Positions 1,509 through 8,575 of a stretch of 9,298 nt of DNA are shown one piece after another. The stretch covers positions 1-9,298 of the forward strand of contig JAICIL010000172.1 of NCBI GenBank assembly GCA_025924435.1, written 5' to 3'. Every line of letters starts with the position of its first letter. Positions within the stretch are counted from its first letter, which is position 1. The DNA comes from Chloroflexia bacterium (lineage in GTDB: Bacteria > Chloroflexota > Chloroflexia > Thermomicrobiales > JALYUS01). The position numbers were made by a program, and so were the translations under genes. The notes under the pieces were generated by a model. It had not been told where the DNA came from. It saw nothing but the letters and a program-made list of their open reading frames with translations, and did not search any database.

Positions 1509-3260
1509 CTATTCGGCGAAGGTGACGAGGGGTGCGCCGAGTTGCACGGTCGCGCCGGGTTCGACGTGGACGGCCTGGACGACGCCGTCCCGGTCCGCCT
1601 GCACCTCGTTTTCCATCTTCATCGCCTCGATGACGGCGATCACCGACCCGGCGGTGACGGCCTGCCCGGCGGCGACCGGCATGCGGACGAGGACGCCCTG
1701 AATCGGGCTGGCAATCGTCCCGTTCCCGCCCGCGCCGCCATTCCGCGTCCGATCCAGCCGGGGCGACGGGCGGCGGGCGGATTGAGGAGCATTCACCAAT
1801 GCAGATTCAAGGCCGTAGACGCGCACGCGCCGTCGCTCACCCGCGATCTCCGCCGTCACGAGGCGGCCCGGATCCGGCGGCGGCGCGGGCACCGGGTCCG
1901 GCTGCGGCGCGAGCGCGGCGAGCACATCGGTCGCCTCGATGAACTGCGTCGTCGCGGCCCCGTCGCGGAAGACCGGCGCGGCGAGCGCCGCCCGGTGGAA
2001 GGGGATCGTCGTCGGCACACCGGCGATCTCGTAGGCGGCGAGCGCCGCCTCCATGCGCGCGATGGCCGCCGCGCGGTCCGCGCCGTGCGCGATCAGTTTC
2101 GCGACGAGCGAGTCGTACTGCGTGGGGATCGCATCGCCCGCGCGGTAGCCGCCGTCCACGCGGACACCGTCGCCCGTCGGCTCGCGATAGCGCGTCAGGA
2201 GGCCGGGCAGGGGCTGGAAGCGGCGGGCGGGGTCCTCTGCGACGATGCGGCACTCGATGGCGTGCCCGGTGGCGGTGATGTCACCTTGCGCGAGCGTCAG
2301 CGGTTCGCCGAGCGCGATCCGCAACTGCCACTGGACGATGTCCACACCCGTGACCATTTCCGTGACGGGGTGCTCGACCTGGACGCGCGTGTTCATTTCG
2401 AGGAAGGAGACCTCGCCGCCCTGCTCGATGAACTCGACCGTCCCCGCGCTGACGTAGCCGACGCTGCGCGCGAGGGCGACGGCCGCTTCGGTGATCCGGT
2501 CGCGCGCCTCCGGGGTGATGCCGGGCGCAGGCGATTCCTCGATCAGTTTCTGGTGCCGCCGCTGCACCGAACAATCGCGCTCGCCGAGATGGACGGCGTT
2601 GCCGTGCGCGTCCGCGAGCACCTGCACTTCGATGTGCCGGGGCGTCGGGAAGTATCGTTCGAGATAGACCGCCGCATTGCCGAACGACCGCGCGCCCTCC
2701 CGCGCCGCCCCCTCCAATGCCGCCGCCAAATCCTCGGCGCGCTCGACGACGCGGAAGCCGCGCCCGCCGCCGCCGCCCGCCGCCTTCACCGCGAGCGGGT
2801 AGCCGTGTTCACCCGCCCACGCGCGCGCGACCGCGATGTCGCTCACAGCATCCGCCGTGCCGGGCACGATCGGCACGCCCGCATCGGCGGCGATCCGGCG
2901 CGCGGCCACTTTGTCGCCCATCGCGCGGATCACCTCGGCGCGCGGCCCGACGAAGGCGATCCCCGCCGCCGCGCACGCCTCGGCGAGCGCCGGGTTCTCG
3001 GAGAGGAAGCCGTAGCCGGGGTGGAGGAGCGTCGCGCCGGATCGCCGCGCCGCGCCGATCAGCGCCGGGATGTCGAGATACGGGAGCGCGGCGGTCGTCG
3101 CCTCGATGCGGAAGGCGCGATCCGCCATCTCGACGTGCAGCGCGTCCTGCTCGCCGGGGCCGTAGACGGCGACGCTCGTCAGGCCGAGCGCGCGGCACGC
3201 CCGGATAATCCGGCACGCGATCTCGCCGCGATTTGCAATGAGGACGGTCGCCACACTCAC
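1509..3260 (-). CDS. pccA: Acyl-CoA (propionyl-CoA) carboxylase alpha subunit: biotin carboxylase + biotin carrier
   Basis: A 583-residue subunit that carboxylates its own biotin with ATP and bicarbonate and passes it to the beta carboxyltransferase. The biotin carboxylase domain spans residues 1-~447. The visible key residues fall at the same numbers as remembered for E. coli AccC: Lys159 in KAAGGGGGRGF (159-169), Lys238 in HQKLIEE, Glu276, Glu288/Asn290/Arg292 in EMNTRVQVEHP, and Arg338 in ECRIVAED. A Pro/Ala-rich linker (~450-465) and a short region follow. The C-terminal biotinyl domain (~516-583) carries EAMKMEN with the biotinylated Lys548 (codon 1617-1619). The total length suits compact bacterial alpha chains (AccA3-like), shorter than mitochondrial PccA. 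The start is GTG at 3260: AAAGGAG lies 9 nt upstream and the protein then begins MSVATVLIANRGEIA, as in the family; an upstream ATG (3311) would add 17 unrelated residues. The partner gene pccB lies upstream beyond the disrupted gene and mobile element. Acetyl-CoA or mixed acyl-CoA use cannot be excluded; propionyl is inferred from the mutase neighbour. Confidence 0.93.
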   Translation of the reverse strand: MSVATVLIANRGEIACRIIRACRALGLTSVAVYGPGEQDALHVEMADRAFRIEATTAALPYLDIPALIGAARRSGATLLHPGYGFLSENPALAEACAAAGIAFVGPRAEVIRAMGDKVAARRIAADAGVPIVPGTADAVSDIAVARAWAGEHGYPLAVKAAGGGGGRGFRVVERAEDLAAALEGAAREGARSFGNAAVYLERYFPTPRHIEVQVLADAHGNAVHLGERDCSVQRRHQKLIEESPAPGITPEARDRITEAAVALARSVGYVSAGTVEFIEQGGEVSFLEMNTRVQVEHPVTEMVTGVDIVQWQLRIALGEPLTLAQGDITATGHAIECRIVAEDPARRFQPLPGLLTRYREPTGDGVRVDGGYRAGDAIPTQYDSLVAKLIAHGADRAAAIARMEAALAAYEIAGVPTTIPFHRAALAAPVFRDGAATTQFIEATDVLAALAPQPDPVPAPPPDPGRLVTAEIAGERRRVRVYGLESALVNAPQSARRPSPRLDRTRNGGAGGNGTIASPIQGVLVRMPVAAGQAVTAGSVIAVIEAMKMENEVQADRDGVVQAVHVEPGATVQLGAPLVTFAE

Positions 3261-3281
3261 CCTGCTCCACTCCTTTGGGCG

Positions 3282-3311
3282 ATTATGGCGCATCGAAGCG
3301 CGTGCGGGCAA
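3282..3311 (-). promoter_or_regulatory. Candidate promoter for pccA
   Basis: On the minus strand TTGCCC (3306-3311) is followed after 18 nt by CATAAT (3282-3287), 4/6 and 5/6 matches to the sigma-70 consensus. Initiation would fall near 3275, just at the AGGAG ribosome site (3270-3274), which is uncomfortably close. It matters because the mobile element now separates pccA from its upstream operon. This is a by-eye match only. Confidence 0.22.
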
Positions 3312-3373
3312 ATATCAGGAGACGATTACGGCAGATTCCGGGTGTCGTGCTCGATGTGACTATCCCGTGCTAC

Positions 3374-3515
3374 TTAGCTGGACGAGACAGTATGCTCTTC
3401 GCCTGTTGTCAGGAGCACGATTGTAACATTCGGAATTTGCGCGGCGTACTTCCCTGCCATCAGCCGAAATGCTGTTTGATCGGCGAGAAAGAAGAATTTG
3501 TAACCGGCCTGAGCA
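3374..3515 (-). pseudogene. 3' fragment of the interrupted nuclease-like gene
   Basis: The last 44 codons of the disrupted gene, reading AGYKFFFLADQTAFRLMAGK onward to a TAA stop at 3374-3376, plus the 8-bp target duplication at its upstream edge. It has no start of its own: an open frame does run into it from inside the element, but those extra residues are terminal-repeat sequence. Joined across the element, the reading continues in frame from the 5' fragment: ...KLRNAQ then AGYKFFF. The stretch alternates hydrophobic segments (KFFFLAD, NVTIVLL) as in the later strands of a nuclease-type alpha/beta fold. Base composition is clearly lower in GC than pccA, 113 bp downstream. Confidence 0.88.
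3508..3515. repeat. Target site duplication, left copy (CCTGAGCA)
   Basis: The octamer CCTGAGCA directly flanks the left end of the element and recurs directly outside the right end (5993-6000). Eight bases is the usual duplication length for IS256-family insertion. Only one copy is needed to restore the interrupted reading frame. Confidence 0.92.
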
Positions 3516-3538
3516 GGTAGTGTCCACGGGTTTCTGTA
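3516..3538 (+). repeat. Left terminal inverted repeat of the element
   Basis: Begins GGTAGTGTCCACGGG and ends TTTCTGTA. Against the reverse complement of the right end it matches at 19 of 23 positions: position 4 and positions 14-16 differ. The shared blocks GTGTCCACG and TTCTGTA are the likely transposase contacts (inference). Confidence 0.9.
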
Positions 3539-3617
3539 ATTAGCGGTGCCGCTTTGCCAGGCGGCCATCGTCCTCCACGATCGGTGTGGCAACGAACCGA
3601 CGCGAAGGAGGAAGACG

Positions 3618-4832
3618 ATGGCTTATCGACAGCGTACCGGCGTGGCGTCAGCAACACAATCCATCCTGACCGACTATCCCGATTTCTTGCGGTCACTTGT
3701 GGAGCGGGTGGTGCAGGCGGTCCTCGAAGCCGAGATGACCGCACACTTGCGTGCCGAGCCCTATGAGCGCAGCCCCGAACGGCGGGGTTACCGCAACGGC
3801 TACAAGCCGCGCCAACTCAACACCCGCGTCGGCACGCTCTCCCTGCAACTTCCACAAGACCGGGACGGCACGTTCTCGACGCAACTGTTCGCGCGCTACC
3901 AACGCAACGAGAAGGCGCTCGTCCTGGCACTCATGGAGATGTACGTCGAAGGCGTCTCGACCCGCAAAGTGCGCGAGATCACCGAAGTGCTGTGCGGCAC
4001 GACGTTCTCCAAGAGCCTCGTGTCGGAGTTGGCGGGACAGTTGGACGCGGAGTTGGAGGCGTGGCGCAACCGTCGGCTCATCGAGACGACCTATCCCTAC
4101 CTCAGTGTGGATGCCCGCTATGAGCATGTGCGGCAGGGCGGCCAGATCGTCAGCCAAGGCGTGCTCATCGTCGCGGGCGTGCGCGCGGACGGGCATCGCG
4201 AGGTCCTTGCCGTCGAAGTTGCCGATACCGAGAGCGAGGGGACGTATCACCAGCTCTTTCGGGATCTCAAATCACGTGGCCTCAACGGGGTGCGGCTGGT
4301 GACGAGCGACGACCACCGGGGGCTGAAGGCGGCGATCGACCGGCATTTCCACGGCGCGAGTTGGCAACGGTGCCAGGTGCACTTCGCTCGTGATCTCGTC
4401 AAGCTGGTCGGTGCGGGACGACGCGGAGACCTTGCGGCCGATTTGCGCGAGATCTTCGCGGCGACGACGCGGGAGCAGGCGATGGCGCTGGCGGAAGTGG
4501 TGGCGGCACGCTGGGAATCGAGCCATCCCGCGGTCGCGCGGCTCGTGGAGGAAGGGATTGAGGATTGCCTCGCCTGTCTCGCGTTCCCCTTGGCGCATCG
4601 GGCGCGTATCCGCACCACGAACGGCTTGGAGCGATTGCACGAAGAAATCAAGCGGCGGACACAGGTGGTGCGCATCTTCCCCAACACTGCGGCTTGTTTG
4701 CGGCTGGTGACGGCGTTGTGCGTCGAGCAATCGGAGGAGTGGGTCAGTGGGCGGCGCTGCCTCGACATGACTCCGTCGGAGACACCGCTCGGAAAGGATG
4801 GGGGGCACGCGCATCAATCCGCTCCATACTAG
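3618..4832 (+). CDS. IS256-family (mutator-type) DDE transposase
   Basis: A 404-residue transposase that would bind the element's terminal repeats and catalyse cut/copy-out transposition. The N-terminal region (1-~90) includes the family's RGYRNGYKPRQL stretch (56-67). The RNase-H-like catalytic core shows Asp165 in YLSVDARYEHVR (161-172), Asp231 in LVTSDDHRGLKAA (227-239) and Glu338 in TTNGLERLHEEIKRR (333-347). The C-x2-H signature RCQVHFARDL is at 251-260, and VVRIFPN follows the last catalytic residue as usual. Length is normal (about 390-420). The start is ATG 3618, because GAAGGAGG lies 6 nt upstream; the longer in-frame ATG at 3546 sits close to the terminal repeat without such a site. 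No frameshift or internal stop is present, so it is probably functional. The last ~15 residues (rich in Gly, His, Pro) do not resemble the family's usual tail and may be read-through into cargo-side sequence. Confidence 0.95.
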   Translation: MAYRQRTGVASATQSILTDYPDFLRSLVERVVQAVLEAEMTAHLRAEPYERSPERRGYRNGYKPRQLNTRVGTLSLQLPQDRDGTFSTQLFARYQRNEKALVLALMEMYVEGVSTRKVREITEVLCGTTFSKSLVSELAGQLDAELEAWRNRRLIETTYPYLSVDARYEHVRQGGQIVSQGVLIVAGVRADGHREVLAVEVADTESEGTYHQLFRDLKSRGLNGVRLVTSDDHRGLKAAIDRHFHGASWQRCQVHFARDLVKLVGAGRRGDLAADLREIFAATTREQAMALAEVVAARWESSHPAVARLVEEGIEDCLACLAFPLAHRARIRTTNGLERLHEEIKRRTQVVRIFPNTAACLRLVTALCVEQSEEWVSGRRCLDMTPSETPLGKDGGHAHQSAPY

Positions 4833-4844
4833 CGCAAAAACGGT

Positions 4845-4873
4845 TTGCATCCTCACTCGCGTGCAAGTATCAT
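4845..4873 (+). promoter_or_regulatory. Candidate promoter in the gap before the methyltransferase
   Basis: TTGCAT (4845-4850), a 17-nt spacer, then TATCAT (4868-4873). The -10 is 5/6 to consensus, the -35 only 3/6. It lies 13 bp after the transposase stop and about 195 bp before the methyltransferase start, inside the 235-bp gap (4833-5067), which otherwise holds no gene I can support. A small inverted repeat, TTGCA / TGCAA (4845-4849 and 4862-4866), overlaps the spacer and could be an operator or chance. Confidence 0.28.
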
Positions 4874-5067
4874 GCGGTCACTGCGTAACCAGGGCGATAG
4901 GCCTCGTCGCGGCACGAAGTAAGGCCCTTCCGGTCGCATCGGGACGGATTCGCGGCCCCCGCCGTGCGCGGAAGTATCGGATTATCTTCCGTGGATCGGC
5001 GGCATTGGATGGCTGCGTTGCGCTCCCCGTGCGCATCAGGACGGCAATGCAGGAACGGAGGTGCTCC

Positions 5068-5928
5068 ATGGACACAGGAACGCCGGACATGCACGCGTCT
5101 TCGACGGGACAGACGTTCACGGACGCCGCCTGGCTCGACGACCACTTCGAGGCGGCCCGGCCGGAGTACGAGGCGCAGCTGCGCGCGGTCGGCATCCGAC
5201 CCGGCTGGCATGTCCTCGACGCCGCCTGCGGCTCCGGTTCCTTCCTCCCCTGGCTCGCGGACCTGGTCGGCCCGACCGGTCACCTCGCCGCGCTCGACCT
5301 CGCGCCCGACAACGTCGCGGTCGCGGAGCAGCGGGTGGCCGCGGCGGCGCCGCCCTGCCCGGTGGAGGCGCGCGGCGGCACGGTCCTCGCCCTGCCGTAT
5401 GCGGACGGCAGCCTCGACGCCGTCTGGTTCGCCAACACCGCGCAGTACCTGACCGATGCGGAGCTGGTGACGGCGCTGGCGGAGTTCCGCCGGGTGGTGC
5501 GGCCGGGGGGCCTCGTCGCGGTCAAGGAGGCTGATCTAGCCTCCCAGTCCATCGCACCCGCGCCGCCCGGACTCTTCCTGCGGCTCACGGAGGAAGCGGC
5601 GCGGCACGGCGTGGTGCAGGCGGTGGGGACGCTGCGCACCCCGCTGCTCGGCGGCTGGCTGCGGCGGGCGGGGCTGGTGGAGGTCTGGCGGCGCGCGACG
5701 CTGATCGAGCGCTCCCCGCCCCTGGATGCGACGACGCGCCGATTCTGGCGGAACACCCTGACCCTCTTCGCGGCGACCGCCGCGGGGTGGGACGTGCCCG
5801 AAGCGGACCGCGAGGCGTGGGAGGGGCTGCGCGACCCGGACGGACTGGACCGCTTCCTGGACGACCCGGACACATGCCTGATCGATGCGAATGTGCTGGC
5901 GGTCGGCCGCGTGCCCGCGGTAGGCTGA
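5068..5928 (+). CDS. Class I SAM-dependent methyltransferase (passenger gene)
   Basis: A 286-residue cytoplasmic methyltransferase of the UbiE / Methyltransf_11 type. Motif I is VLDAACGSGSF (49-59), the acidic SAM-ribose residue is Asp77 in ALDLAP, and LPYADGSLDAVWFANTAQYL (109-128) and VVRPGGLVAVKE (143-154) match the family's later motifs. The C-terminal ~130 residues form an own substrate region with no motif I can name. It resembles small-molecule methyltransferases; there is no DPPY/NPPY-type motif of amino DNA methyltransferases and no Cys-loop (PCQ) of C5 enzymes. The start is ATG 5068, with GGAGG 6 nt upstream; an upstream in-frame ATG (5047) lacks this. It lies inside the inverted repeats of the IS256-type element, same strand as the transposase, 64 bp from the right end, so it moves with the element. 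The substrate, and whether it serves host, element or resistance, is unknown. Confidence 0.9.
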   Translation: MDTGTPDMHASSTGQTFTDAAWLDDHFEAARPEYEAQLRAVGIRPGWHVLDAACGSGSFLPWLADLVGPTGHLAALDLAPDNVAVAEQRVAAAAPPCPVEARGGTVLALPYADGSLDAVWFANTAQYLTDAELVTALAEFRRVVRPGGLVAVKEADLASQSIAPAPPGLFLRLTEEAARHGVVQAVGTLRTPLLGGWLRRAGLVEVWRRATLIERSPPLDATTRRFWRNTLTLFAATAAGWDVPEADREAWEGLRDPDGLDRFLDDPDTCLIDANVLAVGRVPAVG

Positions 5929-5969
5929 GGGGATACGGGTCCTGAGAAGTCGAACGATGTGGAGGAATC

Positions 5970-5992
5970 TACAGAACTTCGTGGACACAACC
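5970..5992 (-). repeat. Right terminal inverted repeat of the element
   Basis: Read on the minus strand from 5992 it begins GGTTGTGTCCACGAAG and ends TTCTGTA, matching the left end at 19 of 23 positions. It lies 41 bp past the methyltransferase stop, which places that gene inside the element. Confidence 0.9.
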
Positions 5993-6000
5993 CCTGAGCA
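5993..6000. repeat. Target site duplication, right copy (CCTGAGCA)
   Basis: Perfect copy of the octamer at 3508-3515, directly outside the right terminal repeat. Confidence 0.92.
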
Positions 6001-6403
6001 TTGCGGAGTTTCTCGAAATCCTTCATGAATGTCGTCCATTGTTGTGAGCCAAAATCGTTGCCCTTGTACGGAGTAGTCGTCTTAATCTCACCGATTATGC
6101 GTTGCCCGTCTAATGTCCGTTCATCAATATCCAACCCGGGCGCTCCCTGCGCTTTCGCGGCAATGTCGAATGGGCGCATACGGAACTTCTGAGATAAATA
6201 GTCCTTTGCCATTAGACCCGCGACAAAGCTCATGCCATTACTCGCATTACCAGAAATCTCCTTCATTGCGAGGAGAAATTGATACCAGTCCCTGATTGGC
6301 GCGCCGAGGTCCGGGATGCTTTCGCTATCGAGATGCCTCTTAAGTGGTCAAGCCGTTGCCTGATAGATTCCAAATACTGCTGCTCACCGAGCGTTTGCAC
6401 CAT
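5993..6403 (-). pseudogene. 5' part of a small PD-(D/E)XK-like nuclease gene, interrupted by the element and frameshifted
   Basis: The reconstructed product is about 181 residues: roughly 137 from here and 44 from the fragment at 3374-3507. The start is ATG 6403 (MVQTLGEQQYLESIRQRLDHL), with GAAGGAG 7 nt upstream and only 34 nt after the pccB stop. The frame then shifts near 6335-6346: a different frame continues as KRHLDSESIPDLGAPIRDWYQFLLAMKEISG, and one extra base in the TTAA run would join them. The core, PGLDIDERTLDGQRIIGEIKTT, offers D92/D94, E106 and K108, a D-X(n)-E-X-K arrangement typical of PD-(D/E)XK nucleases; the later FFFLAD strand fits such a fold. I infer a restriction-enzyme-like or related nuclease but cannot name a family, and no partner DNA methyltransferase is seen in the window. 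GC is visibly lower than in pccB or pccA, suggesting horizontal origin. Confidence 0.82.
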
Positions 6404-6437
6404 TGGTTAACTCCTTCGGCCATTTCGTCTCGGCATC

Positions 6438-7991
6438 TCACAACGGAATGTTGCCGTGCCGACGTTCCGGCCACGGGCGTTGCTTGTTCCGCAGGAGGGC
6501 GAGGGCCTGGATGAGCCGGAAGCGCGTCTCGCGGGGCTGGATCACGTCGTCCACGTAGCCGCGGGCGGCGACGGCGAAGGGGTTGGCGAATCGCTCCTCG
6601 TAGTCCGCGACGAGTTCGGCGCGTTTCTCCGCCGGGTCGGACGCCGCCGCGATCTCGCGCCGCGCGATCACCGCGACCGCCGCGTCCGGCCCCATCACGG
6701 CGACCTCCGCCGTCGGCCAGGCGAGATTGAGGTCCGCGCCGACGCTCTTGGAGCACATCACAACGTACGCGCCGCCGTACGCCTTGCGCGTGATCACCGT
6801 CACCTTCGGTACCGTCGCCTCGCAGTAGGCGTAGAGCAATTTGGAGCCGTGCCGGATGATGCCGCCGTACTCCTGGTCGGTGCCGGGGAGGAAGCCGGGC
6901 ACGTCCTCGAAGGTGACGAGCGGCACGTTGAAGGCGTCGCAGAGGCGGACGAAGCGCGCCGCTTTCTCCGAGGCGAGGATGTCCAGCGTGCCCGCCAGAT
7001 GCATCGGCTGGTTGGCGACGACGCCGACCGAGTAGCCATCGAGCCGCGCGAAGCCGGTGAGGATGTTCGGCGCGAACTCCGGCTGCAACTCGAAGAACGA
7101 GTCCACGTCCACAACGCGGCGGATGACGCCGCGCATGTCGTACGGCTTCGTCCGCTGCTCCGGCACGAGATCGTCCAATTCGGGGTCGGCGCGGTGCGGG
7201 TCATCGGTCGGCGCGACGCGCGGCGGCTGCTCCTTGTTGTTCGAAGGCAGATAGGAGAGGAAAGCGCGGACGAGATCAACGCTGTGATCCTCGTCCACCG
7301 CGACGAGTTGCGCGACGCCGCTCTCCGTCGCGTGCGTGTGCGCGCCGCCGAGCGATTCGTGCGTCACGTCTTCGCCGGTGACGGTCTTAATCACGTCCGG
7401 CCCCGTGATGAACATCTGCGAGATGCCGTCCACCATCACGACGAGGTCGGTCATCGCGGGAGAATAGACGGCGCCGCCCGCGCACGGCCCGGCGATGATA
7501 GAGACCTGCGGGATGATGCCGGAGCATTGCACGTTGCGATAGAAGACCTCGCCGTACCCCTCCAATCCCTCGACGCCCTCCTGGATGCGCGCGCCCGCGC
7601 TGTCGTTGATGCCGATCATCGGCACGCCCGCCGCCCGCGCCTTGTCCATGATCTTGACGACCTTCTCCGCGAAGACCTCGCCCAGGGAGCCGCCATAGAC
7701 GGTGAAATCCTGCGAGAAGACGCAGACGGGCCGCCCGTCGAGCAGCCCGAAGCCCGTCACGACGCCGTCGCCGAGCGGGTGCCGCTCCGGCATCGTGAAG
7801 TGCTCCGAGCGATGCACCGCGTACGGGTCGAGTTCGCTGAAGGTGCCCTCGTCGAGCAGCGCGAGCACGCGCTCGCGCGCCGTGCGCTTGCCGCGCGCGT
7901 GCTGCTTCCGCTGCGCCTCGTCCTCCTCGCGCTGCCGCTGCGATTGCAACCGCGCGATTCGCTCCGCGTGGGGGTGGTTATTCGTTGCCAT
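6438..7991 (-). CDS. pccB: Propionyl-CoA carboxylase beta subunit (biotin-dependent carboxyltransferase)
   Basis: A 517-residue carboxyltransferase with two crotonase-like halves that moves CO2 from biotin on PccA to propionyl-CoA, giving methylmalonyl-CoA. N-terminal half: [20 protein letters not shown] (32-51), [32 protein letters not shown] (127-146), [15 protein letters not shown] (168-182) and [20 protein letters not shown] (211-230). C-terminal half: [21 protein letters not shown] (314-334 region), [27 protein letters not shown] (401-412) and [17 protein letters not shown] (418-434). The glycine pairs in GPCAGG and AYGGAY form the usual oxyanion holes. Asp420 lies close to where actinobacterial PccB has its acyl-specificity residue (Asp422, from memory), which would favour propionyl over acetyl. 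The length is normal. Start ATG 7991 has GGGAG 4 nt upstream and overlaps the preceding gene by 14 nt, implying translational coupling. A methylmalonyl-CoA decarboxylase alpha role is possible by homology but unlikely beside a biotin carboxylase. Confidence 0.94.
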
Positions 7992-8506: not shown

Positions 8507-8575
8507 CTCACCCCCCGACCCCCTCTCCTTTGCCGTGGGGCAAAGGCTCCGTACGAGAGGGGGTCGGGGGGTGAG
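8507..8575. repeat. Nested inverted repeat, 21-bp perfect arms
   Basis: The arms 8507-8527 (CTCACCCCCCGACCCCC then TCTC) and 8555-8575 are perfect reverse complements over 21 bases. Inside lies a second stem, CCTTTGCC (8527-8534) and GGCAAAGG (8539-8546), with loop GTGG. The structure begins 6 bp past the mutase stop (8582), so transcripts leaving that gene would carry a very stable hairpin. This could end or protect the mutase mRNA, but no T-run follows, and the sequence is of a dispersed repeat type. Together with the hairpin at 8432-8454 it fills most of the 163-bp gap. Confidence 0.92.

Follow-up and report, generated by a model that had tools for sequence, protein, structure and literature searches.

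The window, the whole 9,298-nucleotide stretch of Chloroflexia DNA analysed here, contains a 2,477-bp insertion sequence (IS) of the IS256 type at positions 3516-5992, placed inside a single minus-strand gene between genes resembling pccB and pccA. The element encloses a methyltransferase gene in addition to its transposase, and sibling elements in a related metagenome-assembled genome (MAG) carry other enzyme genes at the same place. Taken as a whole, 3516-5992 is very probably a cargo-carrying or transporter IS (tIS) of the IS256 family. Our best reading of the group is a cargo-exchanging transporter IS clade within IS256, tIS as a class being already known; members of this small IS family apparently acquire genes and exchange them.

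Boundaries, transposase and passenger of the element

The boundaries were sought by looking for complementary ends that adjoin a direct repeat of 8 bp, with the position of the transposase as sole input. The pair bounding 3516-5992 ranked first, with 19 of 24 positions matching (runner-up 12) and 21 of 30 over a longer stretch. These imperfect terminal inverted repeats lie directly inside the two copies of an 8-bp target-site duplication (TSD), CCTGAGCA, at 3508-3515 and 5993-6000. The left repeat occupies 3516-3539 (plus strand, 24 nt scored) and follows the consensus of the sibling elements, and the right repeat (5969-5992) is part of a conserved right terminus of 41 bp (5952-5992, minus strand) that is 87.8% identical to the right end of a sibling (G001:C532). 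Among 500 first-order random windows none combined 19/24 with an exact 8-bp repeat; the best scored 18 and 122 scored at least 14, so that the end score by itself is strong only at its top values.

An open frame of 404 aa (3618-4832, plus strand, opposite to the interrupted gene) encodes an IS256-family transposase, with matches to PF00872 (E 1.7e-125) and NF033543 (369.6 bits against a curated cut-off of 150). Motif strings located in the protein are candidates for the DDE catalytic triad. The IS256 family duplicates 8-9 bp of its target, and the element combines a transposase above the profile cut-off with imperfect inverted repeats and an 8-bp duplication. A composite transposon with two IS copies was also considered and rejected, no second transposase being recognised among the open reading frames (ORFs) of the window.

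Downstream of the transposase, on the same strand and before the right end, lies a passenger gene for a 286-aa S-adenosylmethionine-dependent methyltransferase (5068-5928; PF13649, E 2.6e-19; PF08241, E 2.2e-17). An earlier, sequence-only reading of this DNA had described an IS256-type element; the family assignment holds, but that reading did not mention the methyltransferase, with which the element is more than a simple IS.

Sibling elements and wider relatives

The sister genome, Chloroflexia MAG GZL_HY_2_bin.18 (genome G001, locus L001), was reached in a genome collection through a pattern of the 146-aa protein encoded in the window, which matched 43 stretches, one of them encoding a relative (88% identical). 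Its close transposases are 85% and 82% identical to that of the window, with a further fragment at 91%. Two of them were delimited by the boundary test used on the window. The element on contig C532 (L047) is 3,894 bp long, has the TSD GGCTTTCT and carries a pair of glycosyltransferases (EryCIII-like/MGT, 395 aa); that on C151 (1,958 bp, TSD GAAGTCTG) contains a transposase and a GNAT acetyltransferase of 161 aa. On C536, which is cut by the contig, a right end is preceded by a glycosyltransferase 85% identical to the second of C532; this copy was assigned to the clade by these two features only, no transposase being visible. Contig C443 ends inside the transposase, at the contig edge, and its cargo slot is invisible. 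Cargo is present in all four clade copies with a visible slot (window, C532, C151 and C536). The elements are in large part alike over the left ~100 bp and alike over the right 34-41 bp, and differ from the transposase stop to the right terminus. The right termini are alike among the siblings and also resemble that of G046, a plain relative, so that they probably derive from the IS family itself rather than from chance sequence. Among the families shown, no curated NCBIfam cut-off was reached by the methyltransferase, the two C532 glycosyltransferases or the GNAT protein (the C536 gene was left out); cargo functions are predicted from sequence, and no resistance function is claimed.

Outside the clade, eight loci with a TSD hold elements of 1,319-1,389 bp with transposases 39-49% identical; five of the eight come from viral contigs and measure 1,324 bp. 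In two further relatives (transposases 63-67%) the ends are separated by 1,369 and 1,322 bp, with no TSD. These bounded relatives, at ~1.3-1.4 kb, are plain IS with no room for cargo. The other relative loci include many overlapping pieces or contig ends; they yielded either no boundary or an off-consensus pair, which was dropped. One of them, in another genome of the order, may be a decayed copy (G055:C56; L063, 2799-4428), in which a left end and an 88-aa transposase remnant are immediately followed by a glycosyltransferase. Its left end matches at 12/17, a score that random sequence often attains (77 in 100 kb), and sits 102 bp ahead of the transposase start, as in the window. This copy hints at a cargo habit wider than the clade.

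Transposase matches occur in 9 of 61 genomes of the order (E 1e-3), 6 of 158 of the class (1e-80) and 3 of 400 of the phylum (1e-100, with at most four candidates scored per genome), the sister MAG being counted each time. Viral contigs contributed 12 loci (39-54% identity) and plasmids at least 5,000 records, with ~50% the best among the matches listed; the cargo comparison left the plasmid matches out. The end pattern matched 12 of the 158 class genomes and a reversed control pattern 6, so that many of these matches may be background. One of them (G155) lies near a transposase piece, and three others (G091, G118 and G126) resemble one another.

Two side observations concern the copies themselves. 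The C532 transposase has one in-frame TAG, its element having recognisable ends and an exact TSD, and the low-GC target there may be coding. DNA next to the inserted elements has a GC content of 0.44-0.58, AT-richer than the host (119-500-bp flanks of five copies: window, L047, L056, L058 and L059), with 0.60-0.66 in the 500-bp flanks of C151 and C536; AT-rich flanks could reflect either a target preference or landing in foreign DNA.

The interrupted nuclease-like gene

The flanks of the element were searched as separate halves, not joined. With the right-flank piece (118 aa) as query, 88 of 93 candidate proteins reached E ≤0.01, with a best identity of 86%; the piece aligns ungapped with residues 21-136 of the closest relative, P0002, a protein from a metagenome contig (86% of 116 positions). 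Of those 88 proteins, 75 were matched by the left-flank piece (46 aa) at E ≤1 and 71 at 1e-3, the best match again being P0002 (residues 136-180, 82% of 45). Because the halves, searched apart, match one family and meet gap-free, one gene was split, as the sequence-only reading had proposed for an IS256-family insertion with its TSD. That reading would have failed had homologues ended at the breakpoint or had the halves belonged to different families; homologues in fact continue past the breakpoint, and the halves belong to a single family, which rules out two different source genes. Its junction codons are correct in the printed sequence, and the false chimeric ORFs of which it warned exist (5280-6266, minus strand, 328 aa; 3374-3592, minus strand, 72 aa).

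The 3' part of the gene, with the C-terminus and stop, lies at 3374-3507 (corresponding to P0002 136-180) and the middle part, with the D-X-D and E-X-K motifs, at 6001-6347 (P0002 21-136), both on the minus strand. A further minus-strand coding piece at 6341-6403, in another frame, is 82% identical over 22 aa to the N-terminus of P0002 (residues 1-22). The ATG at 6403 opens a frame that differs from the rest of the gene and stops at 6265-6263; the frame changes near 6338-6350, where P0002 runs in one frame. The gene has therefore suffered two lesions, the IS insertion and this frame change, the second of which could be an assembly error. The product of ~181 aa with an exactly restored frame, proposed from the sequence alone by a reading that missed the second lesion, is not supported: given the frame change, removal of the element would not restore the gene, and an interruption with exact restoration is rejected. 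The gene has ~50% GC, with a third-position GC (GC3) of 0.57, compared with 68-73% GC in its neighbours, and was probably horizontally acquired.

The family to which the gene belongs is unnamed, ~180 aa long and without sequence relationship to a named family. The earlier reading had singled out D92, D94, E106 and K108, and these are conserved columns of the family: in an alignment of 63 of the 88 members (A1) the first three are invariant and K108 is retained in at least 90%, giving the conserved acidic and E-X-K residues expected of PD-(D/E)XK enzymes. Fold matches include restriction endonucleases: Foldseek ranked EcoO109I first and VIA ranked SdaI first, and HindIII and R.BspD6I2 were also matched. 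As in EcoO109I, SdaI and HindIII, which are PD-(D/E)XK enzymes, there is a D...D and E-X-K motif, which would here lie in a predicted alpha/beta core; unlike those enzymes, the protein is encoded by a small stand-alone gene. From the conserved residues and the fold matches, the family probably represents a putative stand-alone PD-(D/E)XK nuclease. The gene might instead encode a conserved protein of other function in which the D-X(n)-E-X-K pattern is fortuitous, which we consider unlikely in view of the same conserved residues and the endonuclease fold matches. Sequence matches to solved structures were a C-type lectin (1.4e-5), an azurin and a deacetylase, with no nuclease among them, and were judged irrelevant.

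Members of the family occur in 3 of the 61 order genomes, beside other genes, and no methylase partner was recognised by eye in three family loci. Assignment of the nuclease-like family to a defence system or to phages was rejected: PADLOC and phage records gave no match for it; PHROGs gave one weak match, of a relative (E 0.15), and one of 72,556 plasmid records encodes a relative of the nuclease-like protein (35.5%).

Origin of the passengers and comparison with known systems

The passenger segment at 4894-5928 (plus strand), which includes non-coding DNA upstream of the methyltransferase, recurs at G001:C156, a stand-alone locus in the sister MAG. There the gene is flanked by diacylglycerol-kinase-like and AMP-ligase-like genes (named by eye from translations), and no IS ends were found in 16 kb at the threshold used. 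Window positions 4894-5918 align with this locus at 84.5% identity over 1,030 columns, the upstream non-coding DNA aligning over ~116 bp at 72%, with no significant alignment beyond the methyltransferase stop codon. Relatives of the methyltransferase are present in 59 of the 61 order genomes at E 1e-3, mostly distant, the best being the sister copy (85%) and the next by E-value 64% identical.

Synonymous divergence (dS) between the window methyltransferase and its stand-alone copy is 0.249 (bootstrap 0.183-0.328). Four host orthologues give 0.470, 0.458, 0.394 and 0.523, and transposase pairs reach 0.870 and 1.003; the interval for the 146-aa gene (0.260-0.566) overlaps that of the methyltransferase. 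The ratio of nonsynonymous to synonymous divergence (dN/dS) is 0.39 for the methyltransferase, higher than for host genes (0.03-0.16) and transposases (0.11-0.12), which indicates weaker constraint. Passengers also differ from transposases in GC3 (0.88-0.97 versus 0.75-0.79). On these data the passenger is probably a late arrival in this transposase lineage, acquired when the lineages had already separated, and the methyltransferase may have moved between lineages after the host split; a lower synonymous rate of the gene could be an alternative cause of its low dS.

In the mechanism we propose, the two ends would have been recognised by an IS256-type DDE transposase, which would have carried the entire unit into the low-GC, probably PD-(D/E)XK-type nuclease gene between pccB and pccA and thereby broken that gene. 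Capture of the passenger would most simply have started from a gene lying between two copies, with only the right end of the second copy being kept; alternatively, passengers could have been gained or exchanged by recombination between copies with a common 5' part and right end. After capture the element would move as one unit. By such steps the clade would have acquired and exchanged its passengers.

Several points weigh against this reading of a cargo-exchanging clade. Transposition and the capture step are inferred from sequence, and the cargo clade is sampled from just a single window and a single MAG, which is few. Related glycosyltransferases occur in two of its four cargo copies (C532 and C536), so that cargo is partly inherited. 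A stand-alone source search for the GNAT gene matched 1 of 61 genomes at E 1e-15, namely the element itself, and for the second C532 glycosyltransferase (the first was left out of the search) found no close stand-alone source, the best match outside elements being 56%. No plain IS of the cargo subclade and no composite intermediate were found in the genomes searched. The stand-alone methyltransferase may itself be an import, with transfer possible in either direction, because its GC3 (0.917) exceeds that of all 14 other sampled genes of its genome (0.64-0.87) and resembles that of the window host (0.82-0.92, five genes). Among the plain relatives, some TSD calls score 14-15/24, often reached by random sequence; at L078 and L081 another end pair ties, and at L062, L063 and L076 spurious pairs with off-consensus ends were dropped.

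The old transposase lineages (dS 0.87-1.0) would also suit a stably inherited cargo, each IS lineage having long kept its own passenger with no continuing exchange or capture. The 85% identity of the C532 and C536 glycosyltransferases, by which some cargo was inherited with the element, and the pairing of a transposase remnant with a glycosyltransferase in the decayed G055:C56 copy fit such a history. The ancestry that the methyltransferase shares with a non-IS locus (dS 0.249) is, however, much younger than the transposases, and we regard stable inheritance as improbable. That a plain IS merely lies beside an unrelated methyltransferase gene, with a coincidental right inverted repeat and 8-bp repeat, is extremely improbable: the sister genome does have the methyltransferase without a recognisable IS, but the right terminus (87.8% over 41 bp) is common to a sibling in another genome, two siblings have the same arrangement with their own TSDs, the nuclease-gene halves meet exactly at the TSD and, as the main refutation, the interrupted gene is contiguous across the whole 2,477 bp.

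IS with passenger genes are described as tIS in PMC3129680 and PMC9330008, and PMC10132070 gives ISKpn21, ISKpn65 and ISRel10 of the IS1202 family as examples. Like ISKpn21, ISKpn65 and ISRel10, the clade pairs its own transposase with ends enclosing genes unrelated to transposition, the methyltransferase in the window and other passengers in the siblings. Unlike the IS1202-family tIS, it belongs to the IS256 family, has three kinds of enzyme cargo among four copies and includes one cargo gene that is also found stand-alone at low synonymous divergence. Transposase family, end consensus and 8-bp duplication are those of plain IS256-family elements, from which the clade differs in an extra 0.6-2.5 kb of cargo between transposase and right terminus. 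In the accessible parts of the open PMC literature (PMC3942029, PMC3129680, PMC9330008, PMC7371123 and PMC10132070), with ISfinder and subscription papers outside the scope, no description of a tIS in the IS256 family or of cargo-swapping IS256 elements was found. Annotation usually treats elements with one transposase gene as simple IS, and the genes they carry as ordinary chromosomal ones, and a clade with like ends and different cargo is a tractable case of a minimal transposon gaining and changing genes. The cargo belongs to families of a kind that includes antibiotic-modifying enzymes, and this route could matter for enzyme mobility in environmental bacteria.

Whereas Pack-MULEs are non-autonomous, with gene fragments as their cargo, whole genes here travel together with a transposase, the 404-aa frame of which is open; the common feature is the carriage of cellular genes between ends of the Mutator/IS256 superfamily. 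Pack-MULEs are mentioned, as gene-carrying Mutator relatives of plants, in PMC3942029. It is possible, though on balance doubtful, that the Chloroflexia clade is a bacterial counterpart of Pack-type Mutator elements, repeatedly capturing whole host genes in one fixed slot beside a short right terminus and carrying them between related species without a second IS copy, integrase or recombination site. The captured genes would then be small-molecule-modifying enzymes (methyl-, glycosyl- and acetyltransferases).

The genes around the element, all on the minus strand, encode a Gfo/Idh/MocA oxidoreductase, a pccA-like biotin carboxylase/carrier protein (1512-3272), a pccB-like carboxyl transferase (6438-7991; PF01039, E 3.6e-194), the 146-aa hypothetical protein and a partial methylmalonyl-CoA mutase. 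The order from mutase to pccA is conserved in the sister MAG except in the pccB-pccA interval (L001 5649-7135), which there contains a Uma2 gene (PF05685, 'putative restriction endonuclease', GC3 0.64) and an alpha/beta-hydrolase-like gene named by eye. An empty site with an intact gene between pccB and pccA, which the earlier reading had suggested seeking in related genomes, was not found in this MAG or in the 61 order genomes, a search that did not extend to metagenome contigs such as that of P0002. From the low GC of the interrupted gene and the Uma2 and hydrolase genes of the sister MAG, the interval seems to be a variable slot in which acquired genes settle. Two small nuclease-like singletons, one per genome, share this slot (window 3273-6437).

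Elsewhere in the window, a perfect 24-nt inverted repeat (GAACCACAGAGACACAGAGGACAC; 1382-1405 and 1467-1490) is intergenic and may form a hairpin, and the stretch that separates the 146-aa gene from the mutase gene contains a perfect GC-rich 21-nt inverted repeat (8507-8527 and 8555-8575). At positions 1-70 the window starts with long runs of C and G, possibly an assembly edge artefact.

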